A stretch of DNA of 64,000 bases. Origin: Halosimplex halophilum. Lineage in GTDB: Archaea > Halobacteriota > Halobacteria > Halobacteriales > Haloarculaceae. Made by a program: the position numbers and the translations under genes. The notes beneath the pieces are model-generated. The model did not search any database. It saw only the letters and a list, made by a program, of their open reading frames with translations, and was not told where the DNA came from. Location of the stretch: assembly GCF_004698125.1 (NCBI RefSeq), contig NZ_ML214297.1:1240001-1304000 (forward strand), in the 5' to 3' direction. This document shows positions 15,168 to 32,547 of the stretch, piece after piece (position 1 is the first letter of the stretch; every line of letters begins with the position of its first letter).

Positions 15168-16804
15168 GCTACCGCACGGACCTCGACGACCGCGACGTCC
15201 TGGTCGCCGACGACTCCTCGACGCGCGAGCTGGTCAGCGGCGGGCTGGTCGCCCTGTCGTTCGCGTCGTTCGTCCTCGCGCTGCTCGCGCTCGCCCAGTA
15301 CGTCCCGGCCGACACCGCCGTCGGCGGCGTCTCCGTCGCCGCGGCGCTGGGCGGGTCGCTGACCGCCGTCGGCGTCGGCGTCGTGGCGCTGGGGGCCGCC
15401 TCCTACGGCGGCCGCTTCGCGGCCGAACCCGGACACACCGGCGGGCTCGTCTCCGCGGCGTTCCTCGGGCTGCTGTGGTTCGCGGTCGGCGGGCTCGTCG
15501 CGGCCCAGACGCTCGGGCTCTCGACGGTCTGGCCGGTCGTCGCGCTGGTCACCGGCGCGGTCGGCGCGGGCGTCGCGCTGGTGGCCCGCGAGGACCTCGG
15601 CGTCACCCTCTCGGCCGGGCTGTTCGTCCTCGTCTCGGGGGCGGTCGTCGCCGCGGGCCTCGTCGGCCCGGGCTGGACGTGGAGCCCCGAGGGGTTCTCC
15701 ATCACGCTGACGGGCGTCGTCGGCGTCCCGGTGATCGCGCTGTTCGCCGGGCTCGTCGGCGTCTGGACGGCCGCCCGCGTCTACGGCGGCTTCGGCCCGC
15801 AGGGCCGACAGCTGGGCGCGTACACCCTCATCGCCACGAACGCCGCCGGGATGCTCGCCCTCCTCGGCTCGCTGGTCGGGTTCATCGTCGTCCGCGGCTT
15901 CGGCCCGATGACCGAGGGGATCAAGTACGGCCTCTACTGGGGGCCGTGGACGTGGTTCAACCCGCCCGTCCTCGACACGTGGGTCGTTGTCGAGGGACCG
16001 ATCGTCTGGTTCTACTGGCCGTTCGTCATGGAGGGGTACAGCACGCTCGGCACGGGCATCAACGGGGTGCTCCCGGCCATCGTCGGCACCGTCTGGCTGG
16101 TCGTCGGCGCGGTGGCGCTCGCGGTGCCGCTGGGCGTCGGCGCGGCCGTCTTCCTCACCGAGTACGCCGAGCAGGGCCGGTTCACCTCGCTGGTCGAGAT
16201 CTCAACGAACGGCCTCTGGAGCACGCCGAGCGTCGTCTACGGGCTGTTCGGGCTGGCCTTCTTCGTCCCGCGGCTCGGCAACACCAGCTCGATCCTCGCC
16301 GGCCAGCTCGTCCTCGGGTTCATGCTGCTGCCGCTGGTGGTCATCACCAGCCGGGAGTCGCTCAAGAGCGTCCCCGACGAGTACCGCGACGCCAGCGCCG
16401 CGCTGGGCGTCTCCAAGTGGGAGACCATCAAGAGCGTCGTCCTCCCGGCCTCGCTTCCCGGGGTCATCACCGGCGTCATCCTCGGCATCGGCCGCATCGC
16501 CGGCGAGACGGCGCCCATCCTGCTCGTGACCACGAGCTCCCCCTTCCCCTCGGAGGTCGCCGGCGTCGTCGAGGGCGGCTTCCGGTTCACCTCGGCGTTC
16601 CCGTTCGTCGCCGTCCCCGACGTGAACCTCGTGCAGTCGTCGAGCGCGCTGCCCTACCAGCTGTACGCGGTCATCACCGCCGGGCTCGAGGCGAACATGG
16701 GCTTCGCCTGGGCCACGGCGCTGGTGCTGTTGCTCGTCGTGATGAGCTTCTACGCGGTCGGCATCGGCTCGCGGATCTACTTCAGGAGGAAACTCGACCA
16801 ATGA
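15164..16804 (+). CDS. pstA: Phosphate ABC transporter permease PstA, long N-terminal form
   Basis: 546 aa. The C-terminal half (about 290-546) is a normal PstA permease: [20 protein letters not shown] and the EAA-like loop [22 protein letters not shown]. The N-terminal 240 residues carry about seven additional hydrophobic segments not found in the roughly 290 aa bacterial PstA, arranged as paired helices, with a polar loop (about 210-290) before the permease. Haloarchaeal PstA proteins are often long, so this may be a lineage trait. It would act as the partner of PstC in the membrane. Coupled by four-base overlaps to pstC and pstB. Confidence 0.92.
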
Positions 16805-17730
16805 GCGAAACCGACTTCACCCAGACCGACACCGACGAACCGACACCCGGAACCGACGCGGCCGTCGAACCCGAGACCACCGCCGGCGAGACCGAAGAGC
16901 GCGTCCGCGAGGAGTGGCGCGAGTACGAGTTCGCCGGCGAGACGAAGCTCAGCGTCGAAGATCTGGACGTCCACTACGGCGACGACCACGCGCTGAAGGG
17001 CGTCTCGATGGACATCCCCGAGGAGAGCGTCACGGCGCTCATCGGCCCCTCCGGTTGCGGCAAGTCGACGTTCCTGCGCTGCCTGAACCGGATGAACGAC
17101 CGGATCAGCGCCGCCCGCGTCGACGGCTCGGTCGAGCTCGACGGCGAAGAGATCTACCAGGACGGCGTCGACCTCGTGGAGCTCCGCAAGCGCGTCGGCA
17201 TGGTGTTCCAGGCACCGAACCCGTTCCCCAAGTCCATCCGCGACAACATCTCCTACGGGCCGCGCAAGCACGGCGACCTGAACACCGGGCTGGTCGCGCG
17301 CCTGCTCGGCCGCGACGACACCGACGAGGAGCGCGAGCTCGTCGAGCAGTCGCTCCGGCAGGCGGCGCTGTGGGACGAGGTCAGCGACCGGCTGGACGAC
17401 AACGCGCTCGGGCTGTCGGGCGGCCAGCAACAGCGGCTCTGTATCGCCCGCTGTCTCGCCGTCGGGCCCGAGGTCATCCTGATGGACGAGCCCGCGAGCG
17501 CCCTGGACCCGGTCGCCACCTCGAAGATCGAGGACCTCATCGAGGACCTCGCCGAGGACTACACGGTCGTCGTCGTCACCCACAGCATGCAGCAGGCCGC
17601 CCGCATCTCCGACCAGACCGCCGTCTTCCTGACCGGCGGCGAACTCGTCGAGTACGACGACACCGGAAAGATCTTCGAGAACCCCGAGAGCCAGCGCGTC
17701 GAGGACTACGTCACCGGCAAGTTCGGGTAG
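16801..17730 (+). CDS. pstB: Phosphate ABC transporter ATP-binding protein PstB
   Basis: 309 aa. An acidic N-terminal extension of about 50 residues precedes a complete ABC ATPase: Walker [11 protein letters not shown]-loop near [10 protein letters not shown], signature LSGGQQQR, Walker [10 protein letters not shown] and switch histidine in [12 protein letters not shown]. The [13 protein letters not shown] and DYVTGKFG segments are specific to the PstB subfamily. It energises phosphate import by PstSCA. ATG 16801 overlaps the pstA stop. Confidence 0.96.
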
Positions 17731-17795: not shown

Positions 17796-18833
17796 TCAGT
17801 GCGACGCAGGCGGCGCCCGCTCGAAGTCGAACTCCTGACGCGACACCTGCTGGATGGCGACGGCGGCGACGTTCGCCCCGTACTCGGCGGTCCGCCGGAG
17901 GCTGTCGAGCACCAGTCCGGCGGTGTGGGCCTCGCCCGGGGCGTCGTGGTCGTAGAGGTCGCGGTCGAGCCGCTCGGTCGCGGACACCAGTTCGTCGCGG
18001 CCGGCGAGTGCCGAGTGGGCGGCCTCGACGCCGGCGTCGGCGAGGATCACGTCGCCCGCCTCGTCGACGACGCCGCAGGCGTCCGAGCCCAGCGAGACGA
18101 CGCGGTCGGCGAACCGTTCGGGCAGCGCCGCGTCCGGGTCCAGCGCGAAGCGGGCGATCTTCACGGCGTGGTCGGCGACCCGCTCGAACTGCCGGCAGGC
18201 GTAGTAGTACTCGAACAGTTCGTCGCGCTGGTGGTCGAGCTTCTCGACCTCGTGGAGGTCGGTGAGCGCCCGCCGGAAGTGCCGGGTCACCATCGCGAAC
18301 AGTTTGTCGGCCTCCGCCTCGCGGTCGACCACCCGTTCGGCCAGCGCCGCGTCGCCCTCGACCGCGGCCGTCACCGCGTCGCGGTGCATCGCGAGGGTCA
18401 CCAGCCGGAGCCGGAGCGCGCTCTTGCGCACGTCCACGTTCTCGGCGTCGATGAGGTTCGTGAGCCGGATCCGCGTCTCCGAGGCCTCCAGCAGTTCGAA
18501 CCCCGACAGCTCGGCGACAGTGTCCTCGACCAGCGCGCGCCGGTCGCCGTCGTGGCCCGTCGTGTCGGCGAGCGTCACCTCGTCGAACCCGACGGCGTGC
18601 AGCGCCCGGATCCGCTGTGCGACGGCGCTGTCGCTGCTCGTCGACACGTCGACCGTCGCCGACCGCGTCTCCTCGGCGCGCTCGGCGGCCGGCTCCACAA
18701 GCAGTGACCCGTCGGCGTTCGGGTACAGCGACAGGACCGACCCCGCCTCGATCCCCTGTTCGTTCGCCCAGGCCTTCGGCAGCGACACCGTGTACGTCGT
18801 CCCGCCGGACAGCTGGACCTTTCTCGTCTCCAT
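17796..18833 (-). CDS. AbrB-PhoU phosphate-responsive regulator (second copy)
   Basis: 345 aa, the same architecture as the protein at 11598-12596: N-terminal AbrB-like fold (METRKVQLSGGTTYTVSLPK, then ANEQGIEAGSVL) and C-terminal PhoU helices including RQFERVADHAVKIARFA. The two N-termini are nearly identical, while the C-terminal halves diverge, indicating an old duplication or separate partners. ATG 18833 is preferred over the in-frame start 27 nt upstream because METRKVQ aligns with the paralogue. It converges on pstB and is divergent from the winged-helix-PhoU gene; CATATAAAC (18867-18875 region) is a likely TATA box. Confidence 0.9.
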   Translation of the reverse strand: METRKVQLSGGTTYTVSLPKAWANEQGIEAGSVLSLYPNADGSLLVEPAAERAEETRSATVDVSTSSDSAVAQRIRALHAVGFDEVTLADTTGHDGDRRALVEDTVAELSGFELLEASETRIRLTNLIDAENVDVRKSALRLRLVTLAMHRDAVTAAVEGDAALAERVVDREAEADKLFAMVTRHFRRALTDLHEVEKLDHQRDELFEYYYACRQFERVADHAVKIARFALDPDAALPERFADRVVSLGSDACGVVDEAGDVILADAGVEAAHSALAGRDELVSATERLDRDLYDHDAPGEAHTAGLVLDSLRRTAEYGANVAAVAIQQVSRQEFDFERAPPASH

Positions 18834-19027
18834 ACGCTGTCGGATCCCCACAGGTCCCAACTTAACGTTTATATGAACTGAACGTTCCGCTCCCGGACCA
18901 TATATATCCGTACGGGGTCGGGAACAGAGGGGTAGAGACGAGCGCGAGCGCGGCGCGGACGGACGCTATATAGCCGTCCGGACACTCGGTGGAGCACCCC
19001 TTTGTCACGACCGTCCCAGGGCGGGAT
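18834..19027. promoter_or_regulatory. Divergent pho promoter with TATA-centred palindrome
   Basis: 194-nt divergent spacer. Arms CGGACGG (18956-18962) and CCGTCCG (18974-18980) flank the element GCTATATAGC (18965-18974), itself a perfect 10-bp palindrome and a probable TATA box for the 19028 gene. The octamer ATATATCC (18902-18909) matches those upstream of pstS. A regulator bound to the palindrome would compete with TBP. Confidence 0.55.
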
Positions 19028-19960
19028 ATGGCTCGCAGAACCTGGCACCGATCGCGCGGCGCGACGCGCCAGGGCCGTGACGCAACGCTCGCCCACGTCG
19101 TCGAAGCGATCGACCGGACCGCCCCGGAGACGAAGGCCGACCTCGCGGCGACGGTCGGCATCTCCGAGCAGTACCTCTCGGAGCTGCTCCGGGAGCTCAA
19201 GCGCGAGGACGCGGTGCGGAAGGCCTACGTCGTCGACGACGAGGCGGTCTACGAGGCGGCCGACACCGTCTCCCGGCTCCTCGAACCCACCGGTGTCCCC
19301 CAGTCCGGGGGCGACGAAACCGGGGCGAACGGCAACACCTCCGGTGGCGAGCGCCGCGGGCCCGCCGTCCTCGACCTGCTCGAACGCCTCGACGAGGTGA
19401 CCGCCACCCAGTACGAGGCCGCCCGGCTCGCCGTCGTCGGCGACGAGCCGGACCAGCCTGCCGGCGCCCTCGAATCGCTGGCCAACGAGCGGTACGGTGC
19501 CGTCCTCGAGGAGCTGAAGTCCTACACGCTCACGAACGACTGGCCGGCCAACCGCGTCGCCTCCGACCTGGCGACCGTGGCGACGAACCTGGAGATCGTC
19601 GGCGACCGCGCCTGCTTCGTCGCCGACGTGGCCGACAGCCAGCCCGTCGCGGCGACCGGCGTCGTCGAGGAGCGCGTCCTCGACGTCTTCGCCGCCGGCG
19701 ACCGCATCAACGACCACTTCCGCGACGTGCTCTTCGAGGGCGAGCTGGCCGCCCACGACCGGCTCCGCGCCGAGGAGGAGACCGTCCACCGCGACCTCGA
19801 CGAGCTGTTCGAACTCGTCACCGCCTACGACCCCGAGCTGTACGGCTCGCTCGTCACCGTGACCCGGGCGCTCGAACGGGCCATCTACTACTGGGTCGAC
19901 GCCGCCGAGATCGCCGTCCGGCTCCACGCCGGCGTCGAGCCCGACCACGCGATGATCTGA
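19028..19960 (+). CDS. Winged-helix PhoU-domain regulator
   Basis: 310 aa. Residues 10-85 form a winged-helix DNA-binding domain (TKADLAATVGISEQYLSELLREL, recognition helix about 46-60). After a Gly/Ser-rich linker (about 90-115), residues 120-310 contain PhoU-like helices (LATVATNLEIVGDRACFVADVA). It should be a DNA-binding phosphate-status sensor. ATG 19028 is preferred to an in-frame start at 18989 because it gives the conserved ARRTWHRSRG start. The third PhoU-type protein of the cluster and a different DNA-binding fusion from the two AbrB ones. Confidence 0.85.
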   Translation: MARRTWHRSRGATRQGRDATLAHVVEAIDRTAPETKADLAATVGISEQYLSELLRELKREDAVRKAYVVDDEAVYEAADTVSRLLEPTGVPQSGGDETGANGNTSGGERRGPAVLDLLERLDEVTATQYEAARLAVVGDEPDQPAGALESLANERYGAVLEELKSYTLTNDWPANRVASDLATVATNLEIVGDRACFVADVADSQPVAATGVVEERVLDVFAAGDRINDHFRDVLFEGELAAHDRLRAEEETVHRDLDELFELVTAYDPELYGSLVTVTRALERAIYYWVDAAEIAVRLHAGVEPDHAMI

Positions 19961-20158: not shown

Positions 20159-20830
20159 TCAGTCTGCGTCCGGCTGTGTGACCGCCGCCGCGTCGGGCGC
20201 GTACTCGTCGAGGAAGGTGTCGAGGTCGCGGAACGCGTCGAGGCGCTCGGCGAGCGTCTCGTGGTCCCAGTCCCACCACTCGGTGGCCTCGATGCGCGCG
20301 GCGATCTCCTCGGGGAACCGCCGGCGGACCGGCTCGGCGGGGACGCCCGCGACGACCGTGTACGGTTCCACGTCGGCAGCCACGACCGCGCCGGCGCCGA
20401 CGACGGCGCCGTTGCCGATCTCGACGCCGGGGAGGACGACCGCGCCGTGGCCGATCCACACGTCGTGGCCGACCGTCACCGGCTGGTCGGCCCGCCACGC
20501 GAAGACCGACTCGTCGTCCTCGCCCAGGTCGTACGCCGCCGCGCGGTAGGTGAAGTGGTGGGCGGCCGGACGGTCGATGGGGTGGTTCGTCGGCCCGAGC
20601 CGCGCGTCGCTGGCGACCGACCCGAACTTCCCGACGGTCGCGTAGTCCAGCTGGACCCGCTCCATCAGGTAGGTGTAGTCGCCGACCGCCGATTCGTTGA
20701 TGCGCGTCCCGGGGCGGACCTCGGTCCACGCGCCGAGTTCGCTCTCCGTGACGGAGACGGGGTCGTGGATCGTCGGCTCCGGCGAGAGCTCGCCGCTGCG
20801 GTCGGGGCCGTAGGATTCGAAGTAGGTCAT
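20159..20830 (-). CDS. Phosphonate-associated hexapeptide-repeat transferase
   Basis: 223 aa. The left-handed beta-helix is visible as hexapeptide-like turns (VTESELGAWTEVRPGTRI, VGDYTYLMERVQLDYATVGKFG, VTVGHDVWIGHGAVVLPG, VEIGNGAVVGAGAVV) with the acetyl-CoA-type turn IGHGAVVLPG. It resembles the chloramphenicol/xenobiotic acetyltransferase group and in particular the family found in phosphonate operons (phosphonate metabolism transferase hexapeptide family). It could acetylate an aminophosphonate or sugar intermediate; this is inferred from context. It lies 28 nt downstream of phnE in the phnDCE operon. Confidence 0.85.
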   Translation of the reverse strand: MTYFESYGPDRSGELSPEPTIHDPVSVTESELGAWTEVRPGTRINESAVGDYTYLMERVQLDYATVGKFGSVASDARLGPTNHPIDRPAAHHFTYRAAAYDLGEDDESVFAWRADQPVTVGHDVWIGHGAVVLPGVEIGNGAVVGAGAVVAADVEPYTVVAGVPAEPVRRRFPEEIAARIEATEWWDWDHETLAERLDAFRDLDTFLDEYAPDAAAVTQPDAD

Positions 20831-20858: not shown

Positions 20859-21980
20859 TCAGGGGCGACCCCGGCGGCCGAGCGTCGAGGCGAGGATGTT
20901 CCTGGGCACGTTCACGAACGCTTCGACGACGCCGGTCTTCGACCCGCCTTCCGTCTCCTCTTCGCGGAGGTACGACCGGACGCGCTGGCTCGCGAGTTCG
21001 ACCGACCCGGCGAGCAGGAAGATGAGGATGATGCAGGCCATCATGTCCGTGTACTTGAACAGCTGGCGCTGGGTGTAGAGTTCGAGGCCGAGGCCGCCGC
21101 CCCCGATGAGGCCGAGGCCGATCGCGGCCCGGACGTTGTGTTCCAGATCGAAGGCGACCCAGGCGATGAACTGCCGGAACACCTGACTGAGCATCCCGAA
21201 GGGGACGATCTGCGACTTGCTCGCGCCGGTCGAGCGGATGCCCTCGATCGGGCCCTCCTCGATCTCCTCCAGTTCGTCGGTGAACAGTCGGCCGAGGTAG
21301 CCGGTCGTGTCGACCATGATCGCCAGCGCGGCGGTGAACGTCGAGACGCCGGCCAGCGGGATCAGGATCAGGAACCAGACCAGCCCGGGGATCGCGCGGA
21401 TGAGGCTCATCGTCCCGCGGAAGAGGAAGTTGAACGGGTACGGGACGACCCGCTCGCTCGACATGACGCCGAAAAACAGCGCCAGCGGGAGGCCGAGCAC
21501 CGACCCGGCGACGGCGACCGCGAGCGTGTCGAACATCGCGCCGGGGACGATCGTGACCCCCTCGTAGAACAGCGGCGGGACGAGGCCGAGTCCCAGCAGG
21601 CTCCCGCCGGACTCGACTCGCAGGATCAGGTTCTCCGCCAGCATGAACGCCCAGTACTCCCCGAGGTCGACGAACGGTATCGAGAGCCCGGTGAACGGGA
21701 TCACGAGCGCCCCGGGCGGGAAGTACGGCGACTCACCCATGGTGAGCGCCTCGAGGAACTGGGGCCACTGGGTGACCAGCTCGCCGACGGAGAAGTTGAT
21801 GACCTCCAGGCTCAGCCCGAACACGACGCCGACGCCGACCAGCCCGAGGAGCGTGTAGAGCCGTCGCTTCGTCTTCCGCCACTTCAGCTCCGTCAGTTTC
21901 TGCTCGACCGGCGAGTCGCCGATCTCCTCGACGCCGAAGTACTCCCCCGGTGACCGGTCGCTCAACCGGCGCCCGCTCAT
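20859..21980 (-). CDS. phnE: Phosphonate ABC transporter permease PhnE
   Basis: 373 aa with about six core membrane segments plus an N-terminal helix (about 40-58) and a long polar segment (about 70-150) outside the core. The EAA-like coupling loop is EGIRSTGASKSQIVPFGML near residues 250-268. Family features include the FRGTMSLIRAIPGLVW segment. It imports phosphonates together with PhnC and PhnD. Its ATG overlaps the phnC stop by four bases. Longer than the roughly 260 aa bacterial PhnE because of the N-terminal part. Confidence 0.9.
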   Translation of the reverse strand: MSGRRLSDRSPGEYFGVEEIGDSPVEQKLTELKWRKTKRRLYTLLGLVGVGVVFGLSLEVINFSVGELVTQWPQFLEALTMGESPYFPPGALVIPFTGLSIPFVDLGEYWAFMLAENLILRVESGGSLLGLGLVPPLFYEGVTIVPGAMFDTLAVAVAGSVLGLPLALFFGVMSSERVVPYPFNFLFRGTMSLIRAIPGLVWFLILIPLAGVSTFTAALAIMVDTTGYLGRLFTDELEEIEEGPIEGIRSTGASKSQIVPFGMLSQVFRQFIAWVAFDLEHNVRAAIGLGLIGGGGLGLELYTQRQLFKYTDMMACIILIFLLAGSVELASQRVRSYLREEETEGGSKTGVVEAFVNVPRNILASTLGRRGRP

Positions 21981-22774
21981 TGCGAGACCACCCGCTCGGC
22001 CGCCGGCTCGCCGTCGAGGCTCGCGGGCTCCCCGTCGGCGCTGTCGGCCAGGCCGACCGTCTCGACGTCGCCGTAGAGGTCGTCGATCAGCTCGGGGGTG
22101 AGGTCGTCGCGGCGCACGTCGAAGAGCAGCTCGCCGTCCCGGAGGCCGATGAACCGCTCGCCGAAGTGGGCGGCGATGTTGACCTGGTGGAGGCTGACCA
22201 GCGCCGTCACGTCGTGCTCGGTCGCGGCCTTCTTCAGGTACCCCATGACGGTCTCGGCGCTCGCGGGGTCGAGGCTGGCGACGGGCTCGTCGGCCAGCAA
22301 CAGCCCGGGGTCCTGCACCAGCGCCCGGGCGATGCCGACGCGCTGTTGCTGGCCGCCGCTCATCTGGGAGACCCGCTGTCCGGACTCCTCGAGCAGCCCC
22401 ACCGTCTCCAGCGCGTCGAGCGCGCGGAGCTTGTCCTCGCGGGACTGCCACTGCAGCAGGCTCGTCAGCACCGACACGCGGTCGAGCGACCCCGTCAGCG
22501 CGTTCAGGTACGCCGAGACGCCCTCGACGAGGTTGTGCTGCTGGAAGATCATGCCCACGTCCGACCGCGAGCCCGATATCGGTGCGCCGTCGAGGCGGAT
22601 CTCGCCCGCCGTCGGCTCGGTCAGCCCGTTCACGCACCGCAGCATGGTGGACTTGCCGGCGCCGGATTCGCCCAGCAGCACCGCGAACTCGTCCTCGATC
22701 TCGAACGAGACGCCGTCGAGCGCCGTCACGTCGCCGTACTCTTTCCGCAGGTTTTCGACTTTCAGTGTACTCAT
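21977..22774 (-). CDS. phnC: Phosphonate ABC transporter ATP-binding protein PhnC
   Basis: 265 aa. Walker A GESGAGKST (about 34-42), Q-loop in GMIFQQHNLV, signature MSGGQQQRV, Walker B LLLADEPVASLDP and switch His in VSLHQVNIA. GMIFQQHNLVEG and SLDPASAETVM are typical of PhnC. It powers phosphonate import by PhnDE. The C-terminal 35 residues are an acidic extension. It follows phnD by 28 nt. Confidence 0.94.
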   Translation of the reverse strand: MSTLKVENLRKEYGDVTALDGVSFEIEDEFAVLLGESGAGKSTMLRCVNGLTEPTAGEIRLDGAPISGSRSDVGMIFQQHNLVEGVSAYLNALTGSLDRVSVLTSLLQWQSREDKLRALDALETVGLLEESGQRVSQMSGGQQQRVGIARALVQDPGLLLADEPVASLDPASAETVMGYLKKAATEHDVTALVSLHQVNIAAHFGERFIGLRDGELLFDVRRDDLTPELIDDLYGDVETVGLADSADGEPASLDGEPAAERVVSQ

Positions 22775-22802
22775 TGTAACGTGGTGTCGTCGACGGCGTC
22801 GC

Positions 22803-23927
22803 TCAGGCCGCGGGGTCGATCCCGACGGCGTTCATGCGCTTTATCACCGGCTGGTAGGTCTCCATCGAGGTGTCCTGCAGCGTCGTGAACGGGAGTTCCT
22901 CCTCGTTGTAGTCGCTGGGGTAGTACTGCTGGATCTTCTCCTTGGTCGAGTTCACCAGCACTTCCCCGATCTCCTGTTTCTTCGGCGAGTCCCAGGTCTT
23001 GCGGGCGTAGACCGGCTGTTTCGGGATCGGGAACGAGAACCAGACCGGGCGGAGCTTCGGCTCCTCGGTGTCGAGCGTGTCCAGGTAGGAACTCTTGTTC
23101 TTGACGCGGTCCGGGAAGTCCGACTCGTACTTCTCGGGGATATGCGGCAGGCCGTTGCCGCCCCACGTCGTCGCGCCGACGGCCTTGTCGTTGGCGACCC
23201 GCTGGATCGCCTGGTCGTGGTCCGACCAGCTCCCCTCGAAGTCAACGGGGTCGCCGGTCGGGGCCTCGCCGATGTCGAGCCCGGCCTCCTGGAGGGCGTA
23301 GAGGGCGAAGATCGAGCCGCTCGTCGACAGGCGGTCGGCGAACGCCCAGGTCTTGCCCTCCACGTCCGCGGGGCCCTGTACGTTCGAGTCCGGCTGGGTG
23401 AGCATCACGGAGAAGTAGAACGCCGAGCCGCCGGTGACGGTCGTCCCGTACACGTCCATGATGTCGGGGTTGGAGATCAGCGTCACGTCGTCCATGCCGA
23501 TCTCGGCCTGTTCGCTCTGGAGCGCCGGGCGGATCGCCGAGTAGTTCAGCGGGACGCGCATCGTGACGTCGACGCCGTCGACCTCCCCCTCGATGAGGTT
23601 CTTCATCGGCATGTAGCGCCGCTTGGCGTCGCTGGGCGTCCCCGGCGTCAGCACCATCGTTATCTCCTCGGCGTTCGGTCCGGGGGTGCCGACCGTGGCA
23701 CCGCCGGTGGAACCCGAGTCGGTGGCCGTCGAACCGCCCGACCCGCTGCCCCCGTCCGAGGAGCCGCCGTCGGTGCCCCCCGACCCGGACGAACCGCTGC
23801 ACCCGGACAGCGCGACGAGCGCCGCGACGCTCGACGCGCCGCCCGCGAGGAACCGCCGCCGTTTCACCCGACCGCTACCTGTCGAACCCGTCCCTGTCGA
23901 TCCCTCGCCGCAAGTCTGGTCTGACAT
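22803..23927 (-). CDS. phnD: Phosphonate ABC transporter substrate-binding lipoprotein PhnD
   Basis: 374 aa. Tat signal KRRRFLAGGASS with lipobox ending in LSGC (Cys at about 43) then a Gly/Ser-rich linker (about 45-85). The binding domain includes VLTPGTPSDAKRRY and a second lobe with SGSIFALYALQEAG. It captures phosphonates for PhnCE. A GTG directly precedes the ATG at 23927; either could initiate. First gene of phnDCE plus the hexapeptide transferase, divergent from phnG. Confidence 0.9.
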   Translation of the reverse strand: MSDQTCGEGSTGTGSTGSGRVKRRRFLAGGASSVAALVALSGCSGSSGSGGTDGGSSDGGSGSGGSTATDSGSTGGATVGTPGPNAEEITMVLTPGTPSDAKRRYMPMKNLIEGEVDGVDVTMRVPLNYSAIRPALQSEQAEIGMDDVTLISNPDIMDVYGTTVTGGSAFYFSVMLTQPDSNVQGPADVEGKTWAFADRLSTSGSIFALYALQEAGLDIGEAPTGDPVDFEGSWSDHDQAIQRVANDKAVGATTWGGNGLPHIPEKYESDFPDRVKNKSSYLDTLDTEEPKLRPVWFSFPIPKQPVYARKTWDSPKKQEIGEVLVNSTKEKIQQYYPSDYNEEELPFTTLQDTSMETYQPVIKRMNAVGIDPAA

Positions 23928-24142: not shown

Positions 24143-24586
24143 ATGGACGATCCACACGACCGGTCGGACCGCTTCGAACTGATCGCCGCCGCCGACGGCG
24201 ACGAGCTCGAACGCCTCGCGGACTCGGTGCTCGCCGAGGACCCCCACCTGCGGGTGCTCCAGGAGCCACGGCCACAGCTCGTCATGCAGCGGGTCCGCGA
24301 GCCCGTCGAGCGCCGCCCGTTCAACCTCGGGGAGGTCGTCGCGACGCCGGCCGAGGTGTCGTTAGAGGGAGCCCGCGGGTTCGCGATGGTCCCCGGCAAG
24401 GCCGAGCGCGCCGCCTTCGCGGGCGCCGTCGTCGACGCCGCCGTCGCAGCCGACCACGCCGTCACCGACGAGGCGGTCGAGGCGCTCTCGCAGGCGGCCG
24501 AGGCGCACGACCGCGAGCGCCGCCGGGAGTGGGCGGAGAGCCGCCACACCACCGTCGAGTTCGAGACGATGGAGGACGACCCGTGA
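24143..24586 (+). CDS. phnG: C-P lyase core subunit PhnG
   Basis: 147 aa. The segment PRPQLVMQRVREPVERRPFNLGEVVAT matches the PhnG core, in which the subunit helps form the PhnGHIJ complex that attaches phosphonate to ATP in place of adenine. It continues with ARGFAMVPGKAERAAFAGAVVDAA. Start ATG 24143. First gene of phnGHIJKLM; its TGA overlaps the GTG of phnH (24583-24586). Confidence 0.93.
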   Translation: MDDPHDRSDRFELIAAADGDELERLADSVLAEDPHLRVLQEPRPQLVMQRVREPVERRPFNLGEVVATPAEVSLEGARGFAMVPGKAERAAFAGAVVDAAVAADHAVTDEAVEALSQAAEAHDRERRREWAESRHTTVEFETMEDDP

Positions 24587-25134
24587 GGGCGCTCGGGCTC
24601 GACCCCGTCCACGACACCCGGCGGACCTTCCGGGCGCTGTGCGACGCGACGAGCCGCCCCGGGAGCGTCGTCGCCGTCGACGCCGACCCCGCAGACCACG
24701 CCGTCCTCGCCACCCTCGTCGACCACGAGGTGACGACGTGGACGCCCGACGAGCGGCTCCGCGAGGTGCTGGACAGCCAGGGCCGGCTCGACGCGGCGGC
24801 GCCGACCAACGCCGACGTGGTCCACGCCGTCGGGTCCCCGGAGTGGGACGTGCGCGAGTGCGACCGCGGGACGCTCGTCGAACCCAGCGAGGGCGCGACC
24901 GTCGTCTACCGCGTCGACGACCTCGGCGACGCCGACGATCCCGGGCTCACCGGCGTCGAACTCGCCGGCCCCGGCGTCGACGGCACCCGTCGCTTCGGCG
25001 TCGGGCTCCCCGCCCGCGAACTCGACCGGCTCGGCGACGCGCAGTCGACCTACCCCCGGGGCGTCGACGCCTACTTCGCGGCCGGCGACCGCGTCGCGGC
25101 GGTCCCGCGGTCGTCGGACCTGGAGGTGCTGTAG
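24583..25134 (+). CDS. phnH: C-P lyase core subunit PhnH
   Basis: 183 aa from GTG. N-terminal DPVHDTRRTFRALCDATSRPG is the PhnH signature; the fold is PLP-transferase-like without the cofactor lysine. It dimerises within the PhnGHIJ core. The start is fixed by the overlap with phnG and the match of the N-terminus. The stop at 25134 is followed immediately by the phnI ATG. Confidence 0.93.
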   Translation: MRALGLDPVHDTRRTFRALCDATSRPGSVVAVDADPADHAVLATLVDHEVTTWTPDERLREVLDSQGRLDAAAPTNADVVHAVGSPEWDVRECDRGTLVEPSEGATVVYRVDDLGDADDPGLTGVELAGPGVDGTRRFGVGLPARELDRLGDAQSTYPRGVDAYFAAGDRVAAVPRSSDLEVL

Positions 25135-26475
25135 ATGGGGTACGTCGCTGTCACCGCCGGCGAGGAGATCATCGAGCGCGCGGCGGACCTCTTCGAGAAG
25201 CAGCGCCTCGACGGCGACTCGGCCACGCTGTCGGTCGACCAGCTCGACGACCAGCTCTCCAGGCTGACCGCCCAGGCGATGAGCGAGGGCGGGCTCTACG
25301 CCCCGCGGCTCGCCGCGCTGGCGGTCAAGCAGGCCCAGGGCGACACCGTCGAGGCCGCCTTCCTCCTGCGGGCCTACCGCTCGACGCTCGAACGGTGGGA
25401 GGAGACCGAGCCGGTCGACCCCGACGAGCTGTTTGCGACCCGCCGGGTCTCCCCCGCCTACAAGGACGTGCCCGGGGGCCAGATCCTCGGCCCGACGAAG
25501 GACTACACCCAGCGGCTGCTCGATTTCGACCTCGACGGCGAAGCGGGGAGGGACGGGCCGGCCGACCGTGACGCGGGGGTCGGTCCCGGTGACGCGGCGG
25601 ACGGTCCGACCGACCCCACCGCCGACTGGGACCTCCCGGAGGGCGAGCCGACGACGGTGGAGAACGTCATGGAGATCCTCCGGGCGGACGGCCTCGTCCA
25701 CGACCCCGACGCGGACGCCGACGGGGCCGGGGACGGGACCGACGACGGAGCGGACAGTGGAGCCGACGACGAGTGGGGCGAGCCGGCGGACACGACGCGG
25801 GAGTCGGTCACCCACCCGCCCGGCCGCGACGCGGTGCTCCAGGAGCTCGCACGCGGCGAGACGGGCGCGGTGACCGCGCTGGGCTACTCGGCGATGCGCG
25901 GCTACGGCCAGGTCCACCCGACGCTCGCCGAGGTGCGCGTCGGGAAGCTCCCCGTGCGGATCACCCACCCTTACACCGGCGAGGCGGTCCGCGTGACCGA
26001 CGCGGAAGTCACCGAGTCCGAGGCGGTCGTCCCCGTCTACGAGAAGCGCGAGGACCCCCAGTTCGCCTTCGGCTACGGCCTCTCCTTCGGCCGCAACGAG
26101 CGCAAGGCCATCGCGATGACGGTCCTCGACGCCTCGATCCAGCTCGACGGCGCCGACGAACCCGCCGAGGACCCCGAGTTCGTCCTCGACAACGTCGACG
26201 GGATGGATTCGTTCGGGTTCATCGAGCACCTCAAGCTCCCCCACTACGTCACCTTCCAGAGCATCCTCGACCGCATCCGCGCCATCCGGGAGGGGCGCGA
26301 CCACGACCCCGACGCGGACGGCGACCCCGACGCGGACGGCGACCCCGACGCGGACGGCGACCCCGACCCCGACGCGGACGGCGACTCCGACCCCGACGCG
26401 GACGGGCCCCCGGACGGGGAGACCGACCCGGAGACCGACGAACCGGTGGCGACCGCGGGAGGCGACGATGACTGA
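25135..26475 (+). CDS. phnI: C-P lyase core subunit PhnI with acidic insertions
   Basis: 446 aa against about 355 in bacteria. The core is intact: GYVAVTAGEEIIERAA at the start, KQAQGDTVEAAFLLRAYRST, the central GETGAVTALGYSAMRGYGQ, and the C-terminal FAFGYGLSFGRNERKAIAM. In the known pathway PhnI provides the nucleosidase/transferase activity with PhnG, H and L. Two acidic, Asp-rich insertions are present: one of about 60 residues around 140-220 and a C-terminal tail with DPDADG repeats from about residue 384. The tail overlaps phnJ by eight nucleotides. The insertions look like halophilic low-complexity linkers. Confidence 0.93.
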   Translation: MGYVAVTAGEEIIERAADLFEKQRLDGDSATLSVDQLDDQLSRLTAQAMSEGGLYAPRLAALAVKQAQGDTVEAAFLLRAYRSTLERWEETEPVDPDELFATRRVSPAYKDVPGGQILGPTKDYTQRLLDFDLDGEAGRDGPADRDAGVGPGDAADGPTDPTADWDLPEGEPTTVENVMEILRADGLVHDPDADADGAGDGTDDGADSGADDEWGEPADTTRESVTHPPGRDAVLQELARGETGAVTALGYSAMRGYGQVHPTLAEVRVGKLPVRITHPYTGEAVRVTDAEVTESEAVVPVYEKREDPQFAFGYGLSFGRNERKAIAMTVLDASIQLDGADEPAEDPEFVLDNVDGMDSFGFIEHLKLPHYVTFQSILDRIRAIREGRDHDPDADGDPDADGDPDADGDPDPDADGDSDPDADGPPDGETDPETDEPVATAGGDDD

Positions 26476-27583
26476 CCGCGGCACCGAAACGACCGCCGCG
26501 TCGCCGGCAGACGACGCGACCGACGGCGACTCGACGGCCGCCGACGATTGCGCCGGCGAGGCAGTCGGCGCCGACTCGGTCGCCGCGGCCGTCGAGGGCC
26601 TCTCGGGCGGGGGGCCGTCGGGGTACAACTACGCCTATCTCGACGAGCACACGAAACGCGAGGTGCGCCGGGCGGTCCTGAAGGGGATCGCGATCCCCGG
26701 CCACCAGGTGCCGTTCGCCTCGCGCCCGATGCCGCTGGCCCGCGGGTGGGGCACCGGCGGCATCCAGACCTCCCTGTCGCTGCTCGGTCCCGAGGACACC
26801 TTCAAGGTCATCGACCAGGGGAGCGACGAGAGCGTCAACGCCGCCAACGTCCGCCGGCTCGCCGAGACGACCGCGAACGTCGAGACCGCCACCGACACCA
26901 CCGAGGCCGACGTGGTCCAGACGCGCCACCGGATCCCCGAGGAGGTCCTGACCGACGACCAGATCCTCGTCCTCCAGGTCCCGATCACCGACCCGCTCCG
27001 GAAGGTCGACTCCTCGGACGCCGCCAACCGGCGCCGCCACGCCCACGCCAACTACGGGAAGATGTGGGTCCACCTCTACGAGAACGTCGTCGAGTGGGGC
27101 GAGATCCAGATCGCCAGCCGCTACCCGGTGATGGTCGCCGACCGCTACCTGATGGACCCCTCGCCCATCCCGCGGTGGGACGTGCCGAAACTCGACGACG
27201 CCGACACCCTCTTCCTGTTCGCCGCCGGCCGCGAGGCGCGGATCTACGCCGTTCCGCCCCACACCGAGGTCGAACCGCTCGCCTTCGAGGACGAGTCGTT
27301 CCAGGTCGAGCGGTTCCCCGACCAGGCCTGCCGGTCATGCGGCTCGACGGACACCTACCTCACCGAGGTCGAGACCGACGACGGCGACCGGCTGTACGTC
27401 TGCAACGACACGAGCTTCTGCCTCAAACGGCAGGACGACCCCGCGCTCGCGAAGGACCACCACCTCGACCGCGACGGCGTCGACTGGGGGCCGGGGACGC
27501 CGGGCAGGCCGCCGGTGGACGGGACCGCCGAGGCCGCGGACAGCGGAGAAGGGGCCGACGGCGAGGGAGGTGACGGCGCGTGA
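26468..27583 (+). CDS. phnJ: C-P lyase radical SAM subunit PhnJ
   Basis: 371 aa. An acidic N-terminal extension (about 1-50) precedes a highly conserved core starting SGYNYAYLDEHTKREVRRA. Catalytic cysteines are present: CRSC, then 20 residues, C, five residues, C in CNDTSFC. The first three would bind the 4Fe-4S cluster and the last is the thiyl-radical cysteine; E. coli has 21 residues in the long spacer, so this is one shorter. It cleaves the carbon-phosphorus bond to give a hydrocarbon and 5-phosphoribosyl 1,2-cyclic phosphate. The C-terminus ends in an acidic tail. Coupled to phnK by a four-base overlap. Confidence 0.95.
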   Translation: MTDRGTETTAASPADDATDGDSTAADDCAGEAVGADSVAAAVEGLSGGGPSGYNYAYLDEHTKREVRRAVLKGIAIPGHQVPFASRPMPLARGWGTGGIQTSLSLLGPEDTFKVIDQGSDESVNAANVRRLAETTANVETATDTTEADVVQTRHRIPEEVLTDDQILVLQVPITDPLRKVDSSDAANRRRHAHANYGKMWVHLYENVVEWGEIQIASRYPVMVADRYLMDPSPIPRWDVPKLDDADTLFLFAAGREARIYAVPPHTEVEPLAFEDESFQVERFPDQACRSCGSTDTYLTEVETDDGDRLYVCNDTSFCLKRQDDPALAKDHHLDRDGVDWGPGTPGRPPVDGTAEAADSGEGADGEGGDGA

Positions 27584-28410
27584 CGCTGCTGGAGGCGACG
27601 GACCTGGAGACGGTCTACGGCGACCCCTGCGGCGAGTGCGTCGCGCGGACCGGCGACGAGGCGGGCACCAACCAGTGCCCGGTCTGCGGCGCGGTCGTCG
27701 CCTGCGCGGACGTGTCGCTCGACGTCGAACCCGGCGAGGTGCTGGGTATCGTCGGCGAGTCGGGGTCGGGCAAGTCCAGCGTCGCGGAGCTGCTCGCGCT
27801 CGAACGGAACGCCGACGGGCACACGGGCGGCGACGTGCGCCTGCGCGGCCACGACGGCAACCTGCTGGCGGCCGACTACGAGACGCGCCACCGCCTGCGG
27901 ACGGGCGAGATCGGGCTCGTCCACCAGCACATCCGCGACGGGCTGAACCTGGCGTTCACCGGCGGCGGGAACGTCGCCGAGAAGCTGCTCGCGGCGGGCG
28001 AGCGGTCGTTCGGCGACGTGCGCGAGCGAGTCCGCGAGCTCTACGAGGCGACCGAGGTCCCCGTCGACCGGATGGACGACCCGGCCGAGACCTACAGCGG
28101 CGGGATGCAGCGCCGCGTGCAGATCGCCCGCGCGCTGGCCACGGACCCCGAGGTCGTGGTCCTCGACGAGCCGACGACCGGGCTCGACGTGAGCGTCCAG
28201 GCGCGCGTCCTCGACATGTTCCGGCGCATCCAGCGCGAGGCGGACGTGGCCGCCGTCGTCGTCAGCCACGATCTGGGCGTCGTCCGATTGCTCGCCGACC
28301 GGACCCTGGTCATGCGCCACGGCCGCGTCGTCGAGCGCGGCCTGACGGACCGCGTCATGGAGGACCCGCACCACGAGTACACGCAGACCCTGATCAACTC
28401 GGTCATATGA
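27580..28410 (+). CDS. phnK: C-P lyase ATP-binding protein PhnK
   Basis: 276 aa from GTG. A Cys cluster at residues 17, 20, 33, 36 and 42 (CxxC-x12-CxxC-x5-C) precedes the ABC domain, which has GESGSGKSS, the TYSGGMQRRVQ signature and VVLDEPTTGLD. PhnK is known to bind the PhnGHIJ core and couple ATP hydrolysis to the complex. The Cys cluster could bind zinc or an iron-sulfur centre. The start overlaps the phnJ stop and the stop overlaps the phnL start. Confidence 0.93.
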   Translation: MTLLEATDLETVYGDPCGECVARTGDEAGTNQCPVCGAVVACADVSLDVEPGEVLGIVGESGSGKSSVAELLALERNADGHTGGDVRLRGHDGNLLAADYETRHRLRTGEIGLVHQHIRDGLNLAFTGGGNVAEKLLAAGERSFGDVRERVRELYEATEVPVDRMDDPAETYSGGMQRRVQIARALATDPEVVVLDEPTTGLDVSVQARVLDMFRRIQREADVAAVVVSHDLGVVRLLADRTLVMRHGRVVERGLTDRVMEDPHHEYTQTLINSVI

Positions 28411-29138
28411 CAGACGTTCTCACCGTCGAGGGGCTCTCGAAGACCTTCGACATGCACGCGCTCGGCGACAAGCGAGTCGTCGGGCTGGACGACGTAACGT
28501 TCGCCCTCCGCCGCGGCGAGTTCCTCGCCGTCGTCGGCGAGTCCGGCAGCGGGAAGTCCTCGCTGCTGAAGTGCCTCTACCGCACCTACGACCCCACGGC
28601 CGGCTCGGCCGAGTACCACCCCGAAGACGTGGACCTGGCGACCTGCGACGACCGGACGGTGATGGCCCTGCGCGATTCGGCCGTCGGCTACACCTCGCAG
28701 TTCCTCGACGAGATCCCCCGCGTCCCGGCGGTCGACGTGGTCTCGCGGCCGCTGCGCGAGCGCGGGACCGACCCCGAGGCGGCCCGCGAGCGCGCCCGGG
28801 AACTGCTCGACGCGCTCGGGCTCCCCGAGGCGCTGTGGGACGCCTACCCGGCGACGTTCTCGGGCGGCGAGCGCCAGCGGGTCAACCTCGCGCAGGCGCT
28901 CGCGCCCGAGCCGGATCTACTGTTGCTCGACGAGCCGACGAGCGCGCTCGACCCCGAGACGCGCGCCGCCGCGGTCGAGTTGCTCTCGACGGCGACCGCC
29001 GAGGAGACGGCCGTCATCGGCGTCTTCCACGACCGCGAGGTCGTCGAGTCGGTCGCCGACCGCGTCGCCGTGCTCGACGACGGCCGCCTCCAGCGGGTCG
29101 TCCCCGTCGCGGAGTTCTCCGGGGAGGTGGTGGCGTGA
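28407..29138 (+). CDS. phnL: C-P lyase ATP-binding protein PhnL
   Basis: 243 aa. ABC ATPase with GESGSGKSS, FSGGERQRVNLAQAL and LLLLDEPTSALDP; the segment SKTFDMHALG, then VGLDDVTFALRRGEFLAVVG matches PhnL. It assists the PhnGHI-dependent transfer of phosphonate to ATP. The start is the ATG 28407 that overlaps the phnK stop. A longer upstream frame is a shadow of phnK. Confidence 0.93.
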   Translation: MTDVLTVEGLSKTFDMHALGDKRVVGLDDVTFALRRGEFLAVVGESGSGKSSLLKCLYRTYDPTAGSAEYHPEDVDLATCDDRTVMALRDSAVGYTSQFLDEIPRVPAVDVVSRPLRERGTDPEAARERARELLDALGLPEALWDAYPATFSGGERQRVNLAQALAPEPDLLLLDEPTSALDPETRAAAVELLSTATAEETAVIGVFHDREVVESVADRVAVLDDGRLQRVVPVAEFSGEVVA

Positions 29139-30313
29139 ACGGGACCGGCGAGTCGGCCGCGACGGTCGCGGACCGGACGGACGCCTTCGCCGTCACCGAC
29201 GCCCGCGTCGTTACGCCCGACGCCGTCGTCGACGGGGGCGTCCGGATCGAGGGCGACCGCATCGTCGACGTGGGCGAGGTCGACACCGACGGGGCCGTCG
29301 GGATCGACGCCGACGGGCAGTTCCTCCTCCCGGGGCTGGTGGACCTGCACGGCGACGACATCGAGTCGCACCTCCACCCGCGGTCGGGCGCGCGCATGGA
29401 CACGCACATGGCGCTCGCCGCGGCGGACCGCGCGAACATCGCCGCCGGGATCACGACGAAGTTCCACGCCATCTCCTTCGAGACCGACCCCGACTCGGGC
29501 CGGTCGCCGGAGCTCGGCGCCGAGATCACCGCGGCCGTCGACGCCGCCGAGGACCTGCTGGCCGACCACCGGATCCACGCCCGCTGCGAGGTCACGGAGG
29601 CCGACTGCGTCGAGGCGGTCCTCGACGTGGTCTCGGCGGGCGACGCGGACCTCGTCTCGGTGATGAGCCACATCCCCGGCAAGGGGCAGTTCCGCGACCG
29701 GGAGGCGTTCGTCGAGTACTACCGCGAGTCGGACAACCACACCGTCGCGGAGGCCGAGGAGATGATCGCCGAGCGCGGCGACATCGAGCTGGCGACGCTC
29801 CACGAGCGCGTCGAGCGGGTCGTCGAACGGGCCCACGACGCGGGCGCCGTGACGGCCTCCCACGACGACGAGGACCCCGCCGAGGTCGAGCGCCTCGCCG
29901 AGACCGGCGTCGACGTGACCGAGTACCCGATCACCATGGAGACCGCCCGACGGGCCGCCGACCTCGGGATGACCGTCGCGATGGGCGCGCCGAACCTCGT
30001 CCGCGGCGAGAGCCAGTGGGGCAACCTGGAGACCGCCGCCGCCATCGACGCCGGCGTCGTCGACGCGCTCGTCGCCGACTACCACCCGCTGTCGATGCTC
30101 GCCGGCGCGTTCGTCGACACCGGCGAACCGCTCCCCGAACGGGTCGCTCGCGTGACGGCCAACCCCGCCGCGGCCGTCGGCCTGTCCGACCGCGGCCGGC
30201 TCGAGACCGGGGCGCGGGCCGACCTCGTGCTCGTCGACCGCGACCCCACCCCGACCGTGAGCCGCGCGTTCGTCGCGGGCGAGCCGGTCTACCGCGCGGA
30301 GGGGTCGCGATGA
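29135..30313 (+). CDS. phnM: Alpha-D-ribose 1-methylphosphonate 5-triphosphate diphosphatase PhnM
   Basis: 392 aa from GTG. Amidohydrolase-fold metal motif GLVDLHGDDIESHLHPRSG (His72, Asp74), MSHIPGKGQF and SHDDEDP for metal and catalysis, and YHPLSML near the C-terminus. It releases pyrophosphate from the ribose 5-triphosphate phosphonate made by PhnGHIL, giving the PhnJ substrate. Overlaps phnL upstream and the TIM-barrel gene downstream by four bases each. Confidence 0.94.
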   Translation: MNGTGESAATVADRTDAFAVTDARVVTPDAVVDGGVRIEGDRIVDVGEVDTDGAVGIDADGQFLLPGLVDLHGDDIESHLHPRSGARMDTHMALAAADRANIAAGITTKFHAISFETDPDSGRSPELGAEITAAVDAAEDLLADHRIHARCEVTEADCVEAVLDVVSAGDADLVSVMSHIPGKGQFRDREAFVEYYRESDNHTVAEAEEMIAERGDIELATLHERVERVVERAHDAGAVTASHDDEDPAEVERLAETGVDVTEYPITMETARRAADLGMTVAMGAPNLVRGESQWGNLETAAAIDAGVVDALVADYHPLSMLAGAFVDTGEPLPERVARVTANPAAAVGLSDRGRLETGARADLVLVDRDPTPTVSRAFVAGEPVYRAEGSR

Positions 30314-31119
30314 GCTCCGTCGGCGCCGCGATGGACGTGCGCTTCGGCGCCACCGTCGCGGAGTTCGTCGCCTACCTCGACGAACTGGGCCTCTCGCATC
30401 TGGAACTCAAGCGGGAGTACCTCCACGGCCACCCCGATGCCCCCGACCCCGAGACGGTCGGCGAGATCGCCGACGAGTACGGCGTGACCGTCACCTACCA
30501 CGCGCCGTTCCGCGACTGGAACGCGGGCAGCTTCAACGACGCCGTCCGCGAGGCGTCGGTCGACCAGGTCAAGCGGACCATCGACGACGCGGCCGCGGCC
30601 GACGCGGGCGCCGTCGTCGTCCACGGCGGTTCGGTCCCGACGCGCTACCCCGAGTGGGTCCGCGAGACCGCCCGCGAACACGCCCACCGCTCGCTCGCCG
30701 AGTGCGCCCAGTACGCCCAGCTGGTCGGCGTCCCGCTCTGCCTGGAGAACCAGCCGGTCGACGACCAGCGGCGCCGCTACACGACGACGCCCGAAGACCT
30801 CGAATCGATGCTCGACGAGGTGGCGGTGGCCCCCGAGTACCTCGGCGTCACGCTCGACGTGGGCCACGCCAAGGTCAACGGCTACCACTGGCGGAAGTTC
30901 GTCGACCGCTTCGGCGACCGCATCCGCGTCTGCCACCTCTCGGACAACGACGGGACCGCCGACGACCACGAACCGCTCCCCGACTACCGGCGCATCGTCG
31001 ACGCCGTCCCCGCCGACTACTTCGCCTTCGAGATGAAGTCGGTCGGCGACATCGCACGATGTATGGGAGTCGACCCCGAATCGGTCGACACCCCCCTCGC
31101 GACCCCGAGTGACCCATGA
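30310..31119 (+). CDS. Xylose isomerase-like TIM-barrel protein of the phn operon
   Basis: 269 aa. The AP-endonuclease/xylose-isomerase fold is shown by VTYHAPFRDWN, VVVHGGSVPTRYPEW, LCLENQPVDDQRRRY, GVTLDVGHAKVNG and VCHLSDNDG, which supply His, Glu and Asp metal ligands in the order typical of this superfamily. Substrate unknown; the family includes sugar-phosphate isomerases, epimerases and phosphodiester-cutting endonucleases. It sits where phnN/phnP would be expected, coupled by ATGA overlaps to phnM and to the next HAD gene, so it probably acts on a C-P lyase product. Confidence 0.82.
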   Translation: MSSVGAAMDVRFGATVAEFVAYLDELGLSHLELKREYLHGHPDAPDPETVGEIADEYGVTVTYHAPFRDWNAGSFNDAVREASVDQVKRTIDDAAAADAGAVVVHGGSVPTRYPEWVRETAREHAHRSLAECAQYAQLVGVPLCLENQPVDDQRRRYTTTPEDLESMLDEVAVAPEYLGVTLDVGHAKVNGYHWRKFVDRFGDRIRVCHLSDNDGTADDHEPLPDYRRIVDAVPADYFAFEMKSVGDIARCMGVDPESVDTPLATPSDP

Positions 31120-31778
31120 CAGGAACCTACGACGCGGTCGTCTTCGACCACGATGGCGTGCTCGTCGAACTCACCGAGATGGACCTGCTGCGCCGCGCCG
31201 CCCGCGCGGCCTTCGAATCCCACGGCGTCTCGGACCCGCCCGAGGCGCTCGTCGAACACGCGGCTAACGGCGAGCTCGACGACCTCGCCCGGGTCGAGGA
31301 CGCGCTGGACCTCTCGCTGGCCGACTACTGGGCCACTCGCGAGGACCACGCCGTCGCCCACCAGTGCGACGCCATCGAGTCCGGCGCCAAACCGCTGTAC
31401 GACGACGTGACCGCGCTGGCGGACCTCCCCCACCGGAAGGCCGTCGTCAGCAACAACCAGCACGAGACGGTCCGGTTCGTCGTCGACCACTACGACCTGG
31501 CCGACCACTTCGAGCACGTCGTCGGCCGCGACCCCACCGTCGAGGGCGCCCGCCGGCGCAAGCCAGAGCCCCACTACCTCGACGCCGCGCTCGACGAGCT
31601 GGGCACCCGCGACGCACTCTACGTCGGCGACTCCCCGAAAGACGTGGAAGTCGCCCACCGCGCGGGCGTCGACAGCGCCTTCCTCCGGCGCGACCACCGG
31701 GCCGACACCGTCCTCGACCGCGAGCCCACCTACGAGGTCGAGACGCTGACCGCGCTGGCCGAGCGGCTGGCCGACTGA
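31116..31778 (+). CDS. HAD-superfamily phosphatase of the phn operon
   Basis: 220 aa. Motif I is FDHDGVL (Asp11 nucleophile, Asp13), motif II is SNN, the lysine is in RRKPEPHY and motif IV is VGDSPKDVE. Helical cap after motif I. It belongs to the phosphoglycolate phosphatase-like group. Last gene of the coupled phnGHIJKLM-TIM-HAD series. A plausible role is dephosphorylating a ribose phosphate released by C-P lyase; this is inferred from position only. Confidence 0.8.
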   Translation: MTGTYDAVVFDHDGVLVELTEMDLLRRAARAAFESHGVSDPPEALVEHAANGELDDLARVEDALDLSLADYWATREDHAVAHQCDAIESGAKPLYDDVTALADLPHRKAVVSNNQHETVRFVVDHYDLADHFEHVVGRDPTVEGARRRKPEPHYLDAALDELGTRDALYVGDSPKDVEVAHRAGVDSAFLRRDHRADTVLDREPTYEVETLTALAERLAD

Positions 31779-31866
31779 CGGCTCCCGGGGCCCCAGCGCC
31801 GCCAGTCGCCCGGCAATTCGCGCGGATGGCACAACATACATTGCCCGGCCGGTGGTCGTCGTAGGT

Positions 31867-32547
31867 ATGCCACGCGAAGGATATCAGGAGAAACTCGACG
31901 CGCTACAGGAGGACGTGCTCTACATGAGCGAGGTCGTCCTCGAACGCCTGCGGATGGGCCTGGACGCCCTGGAGACCAAAGACGAGGATCTGGCCTGGGA
32001 AGTCATCGAGGGCGACCACGAGATCAACGACCTCTACCTCGACCTCGAACAGGACTGCATCGACCTGCTGGCGCTCCAGCAGCCGGTCGCCTCGGACCTG
32101 CGATTCATCGCCGCCTCGTTCAAGATCATCACCGACCTCGAACGCATCGCCGACCTCGCCACCAACCTCGGCGACTACACCCTCGAAGCCGAGCGCGACC
32201 TGTACCCCGACGTGGACATCCAGGAGATCGGGACGCTCGTCATCGAGATGGTCGAGGCCGCCATGGACGCCTACGAGTCGGAGGACGCCGACGCCTGCGT
32301 CGCCATCTCCGAACAGGACGACGCCATCGACGAGCGCTGCGAGGCCGCCTCCAGCACCATCGTCCGCGACCTCATCGAACGGGAGGTCGACGACGGCACC
32401 GGCGAGGAGGAGATCGAACAGCTCATGGCCGACGTGTCCCGCCTGCTGCTCACCGTTCGCGACCTCGAACGCGTCGGCGACCACGCCGTCAACATCGCCG
32501 CCCGCACCCTCTACATGGTCGAGAACTCCGACGAACTGATCTACTGA
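31867..32547 (+). CDS. phoU: Phosphate uptake regulator PhoU
   Basis: 226 aa. Two three-helix PhoU repeats with the metal-binding ELxxxxRL/DLERIADLATNLGDY and DLERVGDHAVNIA patterns. It is a stand-alone PhoU without a DNA-binding fusion, like the bacterial protein that links Pst transport to signalling. It closes the phosphorus island, 88 nt after the HAD gene. ATG 31867 is chosen over the in-frame GTG/ATG further up because it begins MPREGYQEKL, and the spacer TTGCCCGG carries the ACATACATTG element as TATA. Confidence 0.93.
   Translation: MPREGYQEKLDALQEDVLYMSEVVLERLRMGLDALETKDEDLAWEVIEGDHEINDLYLDLEQDCIDLLALQQPVASDLRFIAASFKIITDLERIADLATNLGDYTLEAERDLYPDVDIQEIGTLVIEMVEAAMDAYESEDADACVAISEQDDAIDERCEAASSTIVRDLIEREVDDGTGEEEIEQLMADVSRLLLTVRDLERVGDHAVNIAARTLYMVENSDELIY

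Follow-up and report, generated by a model that had tools for sequence, protein, structure and literature searches.

The C-P lyase proteins PhnGHIJKLM of E. coli convert phosphonates to 5-phospho-alpha-D-ribosyl 1,2-cyclic phosphate. When a C-P lyase operon encodes neither PhnP nor PhnN, which enzyme opens this cyclic product, and what becomes of it afterwards? The question is raised by a locus of the haloarchaeon Halosimplex halophilum (genome of 4.47 Mb, 99.9% complete), which lies in a 64,000-nucleotide window of the chromosome (G000:C1:1240001-1304000, the whole stretch of DNA that was analysed). An earlier reading made from the sequence alone (the sequence-only reading) had pointed to two genes at the end of the operon, encoding a TIM barrel and a HAD phosphatase, as an alternative end of the pathway.

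The C-P lyase core of this locus is complete. The genes phnGHIJKLM are on the forward strand (24143-30313), divergent from phnEDC on the reverse strand (20859-23924). The models of five core components were matched over their cut-offs: phnG (24143..24586; PF06754, 4.4e-23), phnH (24583..25134; PF05845 and TIGR03292), phnI (25135..26475; PF05861, 5.2e-131), phnJ, the radical SAM subunit of the C-P lyase (26468..27583; PF06007, 5.5e-133), and the diphosphatase gene phnM (29135..30313; NF011990, 440 bits for a cut-off of 233). The products of phnK (27580..28410; TIGR02323, 219 bits) and phnL (28407..29138; TIGR02324, 237 bits) have their best matches to the expected models, yet remain under the strict cut-offs (303 and 256 bits). 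The TIM-barrel gene (30310..31119, forward; PF01261, 3.3e-32), which encodes the proposed phosphoribosyl cyclic phosphate phosphodiesterase, and the HAD gene (31116..31778, forward) follow directly, and the junction coordinates confirm that each overlaps its upstream neighbour by four bases (ATGA), as had been read from the sequence. The same type of overlap (ATGA or GTGA) occurs at G/H, J/K, K/L, and L/M, whereas phnH and phnI abut and phnI and phnJ overlap by eight bases. The cluster also includes genes that the sequence-only reading had left unmentioned, all on the reverse strand: phnD, for a binding protein (22803..23924; PF12974, 1.4e-28), phnC, for an ATPase (21977..22774; best match TIGR02315, 249 bits, cut-off 266), phnE, for a permease (20859..21980; TIGR01097, 216.4 bits, cut-off 216.7), and a gene for a hexapeptide acetyltransferase (20159..20830; TIGR03308 phn_thr-fam, 307 bits, cut-off 202) of a family named after its occurrence in phosphonate clusters. 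Possible regulators of the cluster are a protein combining a PhoU domain with an AbrB/MazE-like domain for DNA binding (17796-18965, reverse) and the product of an adjoining HTH gene (18989-19960).

Neither phnN nor phnP is present in the operon, and both are missing from the window, as the sequence-only reading had stated. The absence extends to the whole genome, in which profile searches (the basis of all genome-wide negatives given here) found no PhnP (TIGR03307) or PhnN (TIGR02322) over cut-off. PhnJ is encoded in 39 of the 391 genomes of the class that we surveyed, and none of these 39 (the genome of the window and 38 others) has PhnP, PhnN, or an RcsF-type 2H phosphodiesterase (TIGR03223) over cut-off. 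The archaeal gap was already known: the part of a 2023 review available to us (PMC10574752) describes archaeal C-P lyase operons without phnNOP, e.g., in H. walsbyi and N. moolapensis, presents the use of phosphonates by Archaea as unproven and without data, and gives the RcsF-type phosphodiesterase as a proposed substitute for PhnP in bacterial operons lacking phnP. The TIM barrel is not mentioned as a candidate in that part of the review.

The TIM-barrel gene is tightly associated with the phn genes. It lies directly after phnM in all 38 operons that could be read, i.e., in the window, in 36 fetched loci, and in the genome G300, where phnM and the TIM gene after it are on a separate contig. 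In the fetched loci, the gene next after phnM encodes a homologue with 57-87% identity (one is cut by the end of a contig), and the stop of phnM overlaps the TIM start by four bases in 32 of these 36 loci. A relative with at least 56% identity is present in all 39 genomes encoding PhnJ; in the closely related Halosimplex pelagicum, the protein is 93% identical. All ten haloarchaeal plasmids with phnJ carry the gene, and a search of bacterial plasmids gave no match, though about 205 of them carry phnJ. Pairwise distances between TIM proteins correlate with those between PhnM proteins (r = 0.87). This association goes far beyond chance adjacency. In the phylogenetic tree, a group of TIM proteins from genomes largely lacking PhnJ nests among those of the phn operons, and a single clade of phn TIM proteins is not rejected (p-AU 0.066). 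One genome (G314) has a broken phn operon: its phnJ is truncated, the stretch contains an assembly gap of 100 N, and about 10 kb downstream lies a remnant of the TIM gene.

The second gene of the pair is less constant. Its product is a complete HAD-IA phosphatase (PF00702 and PF13419, both over cut-off), and the motifs DxD, VSNN, RKP, and GDS are kept in the HAD proteins encoded next to the TIM gene. The family is nevertheless present in 370 of the 391 genomes, adjoins the TIM gene in only 19 of the 36 operons with enough sequence, and the 17 sufficiently long TIM-adjacent proteins do not form one clade (p-AU 7.7e-57). The placement beside the TIM gene arose through several separate recruitments. 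In one locus (L073, a 14 kb region of G268), the HAD gene after the TIM gene matches as two overlapping pieces in different frames, which indicates a pseudogene or a sequencing error.

The surroundings of the cluster give the HAD gene another context. A pst locus surrounds the phn cluster: genes for a PstS-like protein and PstB come before it (12835-17730), and the HAD gene and phoU (31867..32547, forward; PF01895, 3.7e-40) after it (31116-32547). A genome of the same genus without phnJ (G161) lacks the stretch corresponding to 17.7-31.1 kb of the window; pstB, a gene for an 87%-identical HAD protein, and phoU are contiguous there, in this order. Five further genomes have a HAD gene of the same family between pstB and phoU. 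The HAD gene of the window is therefore a resident gene of the phosphate locus that stands beside phn, the phn cluster having been either inserted here or lost in G161. Hence, of the TIM-HAD pair to which the sequence-only reading had pointed, the TIM half stands in every readable operon, whereas the HAD half, found in about half of them, polyphyletic, and in this genus persisting without phn, was rejected as a conserved phn-specific partner. Its repeated placement after the TIM gene points to a useful connection, in the simplest case a bisphosphate phosphatase activity, and a ribose-bisphosphate phosphatase acting as dedicated partner of the TIM protein is possible.

What kind of enzyme is the TIM protein? 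It belongs to the AP endonuclease 2/xylose isomerase-like barrels (PF01261, 112.6 bits, cut-off 31.1) and passes the cut-off of no curated family. Its best curated match is CbiR (NF041277, 68.3 bits, cut-off 105), followed by one of two DNase IV models and then by epimerase models. The score is 43 bits for endonuclease IV (Nfo; cut-off 244) and 24-34 bits for fructoselysine 3-epimerase, IolE, IolO, and psicose epimerase (cut-offs 290-305). Identification as CbiR or as Nfo was dropped, both scores being below cut-off. Nine residues (H64, H105, E146, D183, H186, H209, D218, H220, and E241) are invariant in the 36 phn TIM proteins and 20 relatives, and we take them to correspond to the nine ligands of the tri-metal site of endonuclease IV. 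Seven align directly to H109, E145, D179, H182, H216, D229, and H231 of E. coli Nfo; in the MAFFT alignment, H64 and E241 are shifted relative to their Nfo counterparts, and they were assigned by motif, by the alignment of H64 with the histidine of HAPY in the mycobacterial enzyme, and by the place of E241 following the final strand. A direct comparison with E. coli Nfo by hhalign gave a weak probability (19%), probably owing to the shallowness of both profiles. The AlphaFold model is a TIM barrel (pLDDT 89.8, pTM 0.89) with the nine residues at or near the C-termini of strands.

Comparisons with known proteins are informative in different ways. A structure search with the model found M. jannaschii MJ1311 as nearest (PDB 3wqo; E 8e-17, TM 0.78), then epimerases and endonuclease IV. 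MJ1311 has the motifs HAPF, VVH, LEN, and DxGH in common with the TIM protein, but only 24% identity; the structure is titled epimerase-like protein, and the records consulted give no function. Endonuclease IV is a TIM barrel too, with counterparts of all nine residues in the phn protein, although the C-terminal part of the latter diverges and has no sign of DNA binding. CbiR, of the same PF01261 superfamily, is a characterised cobamide-remodelling phosphodiesterase that cleaves a ribose-linked phosphodiester in a metal-dependent manner (PMC7733943). The neighbours of the TIM gene are phn rather than cobamide genes, and a different substrate is expected.

These features may be read in more than one way. 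Public records annotate the protein as a sugar phosphate isomerase/epimerase, and many of its structural neighbours are epimerases; it might thus act on the ribose product while an unlinked enzyme opens the cyclic phosphate. However, an aligned D-tagatose 3-epimerase shares E146, D183, H186, and H209 but lacks H64 and H105, and it is these two histidines, which separate the endonuclease IV-type site from that of the epimerases, that are kept in the TIM protein, together with invariant D218 and H220. CbiR and one of the DNase IV models also outscore the epimerase models, and no PhnP or RcsF-type enzyme was found in the 39 genomes to serve as the unlinked opener. We thus regard an isomerase as improbable, and the suggestion of the sequence-only reading that the barrel isomerises the ribose product is not supported. 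The opener could also be a generic protein of the metallo-beta-lactamase fold, the TIM protein then having another task, e.g., repairing or detoxifying a side product. Such proteins give weak matches to the PhnP profile in most haloarchaea (at most 68 bits, cut-off 272). Yet genomes lacking phnJ have them just as often (10 of 11) as those with it (35 of 39), which rules out a hidden PhnP among them, and none was seen within phn operons; this explanation seems to us improbable. The sequence and the model favour a putative metal-dependent phosphodiesterase over an isomerase, and the TIM protein is probably the haloarchaeal replacement for PhnP, hydrolysing 5-phosphoribosyl 1,2-cyclic phosphate. 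Its substrate is assigned from the gene context and the gap in the pathway. This is the part of the sequence-only reading that fared best, as an opening step fits the absence of PhnP and PhnN, the invariant place in the operon, and the phosphodiesterase-type metal site. E. coli PhnP, whose gene is likewise late in the phn operon, takes the same proposed step after PhnJ, but has a metallo-beta-lactamase fold and a dinuclear site, unrelated to the barrel and its endonuclease IV-type site; the RcsF-type enzyme, also a proposed substitute, differs from the barrel in fold.

Whether a second enzyme is then necessary is less clear. Elen0235, an enzyme of the PHP family, opens the cyclic phosphate and also removes the phosphate ester, giving ribose 5-phosphate. 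If the TIM protein did the same, it would yield ribose 5-phosphate directly and the HAD protein would be dispensable. In seven genomes with PhnJ (G014, G102, G138, G164, G282, G299, and G317), the operon ends in the TIM gene, and there is neither a TIM-adjacent HAD gene nor a ribose-1,5-bisphosphate isomerase over cut-off; these genomes would be compatible with double hydrolysis or with unlinked phosphatases. However, almost all haloarchaea encode HAD proteins of the same broad family at other loci, and these might act in trans; we consider double hydrolysis unlikely. A different outlet, by the pentose bisphosphate route, would involve type III RuBisCO, present in 12 of the 39 genomes with PhnJ, and bona fide ribose-1,5-bisphosphate isomerase, present in 19; their presence has no clear link to the adjacency of the HAD gene. 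Neither enzyme was found over cut-off by profiles in the H. halophilum genome. We therefore rejected this route for H. halophilum, where a phosphatase is the simplest outlet.

With the TIM protein as the opener, the pathway would run as follows. PhnGHIJKLM, assumed to act as in E. coli, would convert the phosphonate to 5-phospho-alpha-D-ribosyl 1,2-cyclic phosphate. The TIM protein, with an endonuclease IV-like site holding up to three metal ions, would open the cyclic phosphodiester by hydrolysis, giving a ribose bisphosphate that is probably the 1,5-isomer. With PhnN, the enzyme that makes PRPP, missing, this product would be dephosphorylated to ribose 5-phosphate and phosphate. The coupled HAD protein may be the best candidate for this last step in H. 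halophilum, a weaker assignment than that of the barrel, and other haloarchaea might use another HAD protein or the ribose-1,5-bisphosphate isomerase/RuBisCO route. We put forward the whole scheme only tentatively, at somewhat less than even confidence: a PRPP-free end of the C-P lyase pathway in which an endonuclease IV-type phosphodiesterase is followed by a phosphate-starvation HAD protein or the archaeal pentose-bisphosphate route, with release of free phosphate. The sequence-only reading is in this respect partly upheld, its opening step retained, its isomerase role disfavoured, and its HAD pairing weakened. The analysis provides one specific candidate gene for the cyclic-product step, present in every haloarchaeal operon examined. 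If the proposal is true, it adds a phosphodiesterase function to a superfamily publicly annotated as sugar isomerases and completes a haloarchaeal route releasing phosphate, and perhaps methane, from phosphonates.

In addition, a sister group of the TIM protein, sharing its ligands, is encoded in about 23 genomes. Since PhnJ is missing from nearly all of them, the fold alone does not determine which substrate is used. The sister proteins (loci L117-L136 and L168-L170) have 46-59% identity and keep the nine ligands. Most of their loci include, next to the sister gene, a gene for a ComB-like homologue of 2-phosphosulfolactate phosphatase (PF04029), three genes for an ECF-type transporter with an unclassified membrane component, or both.
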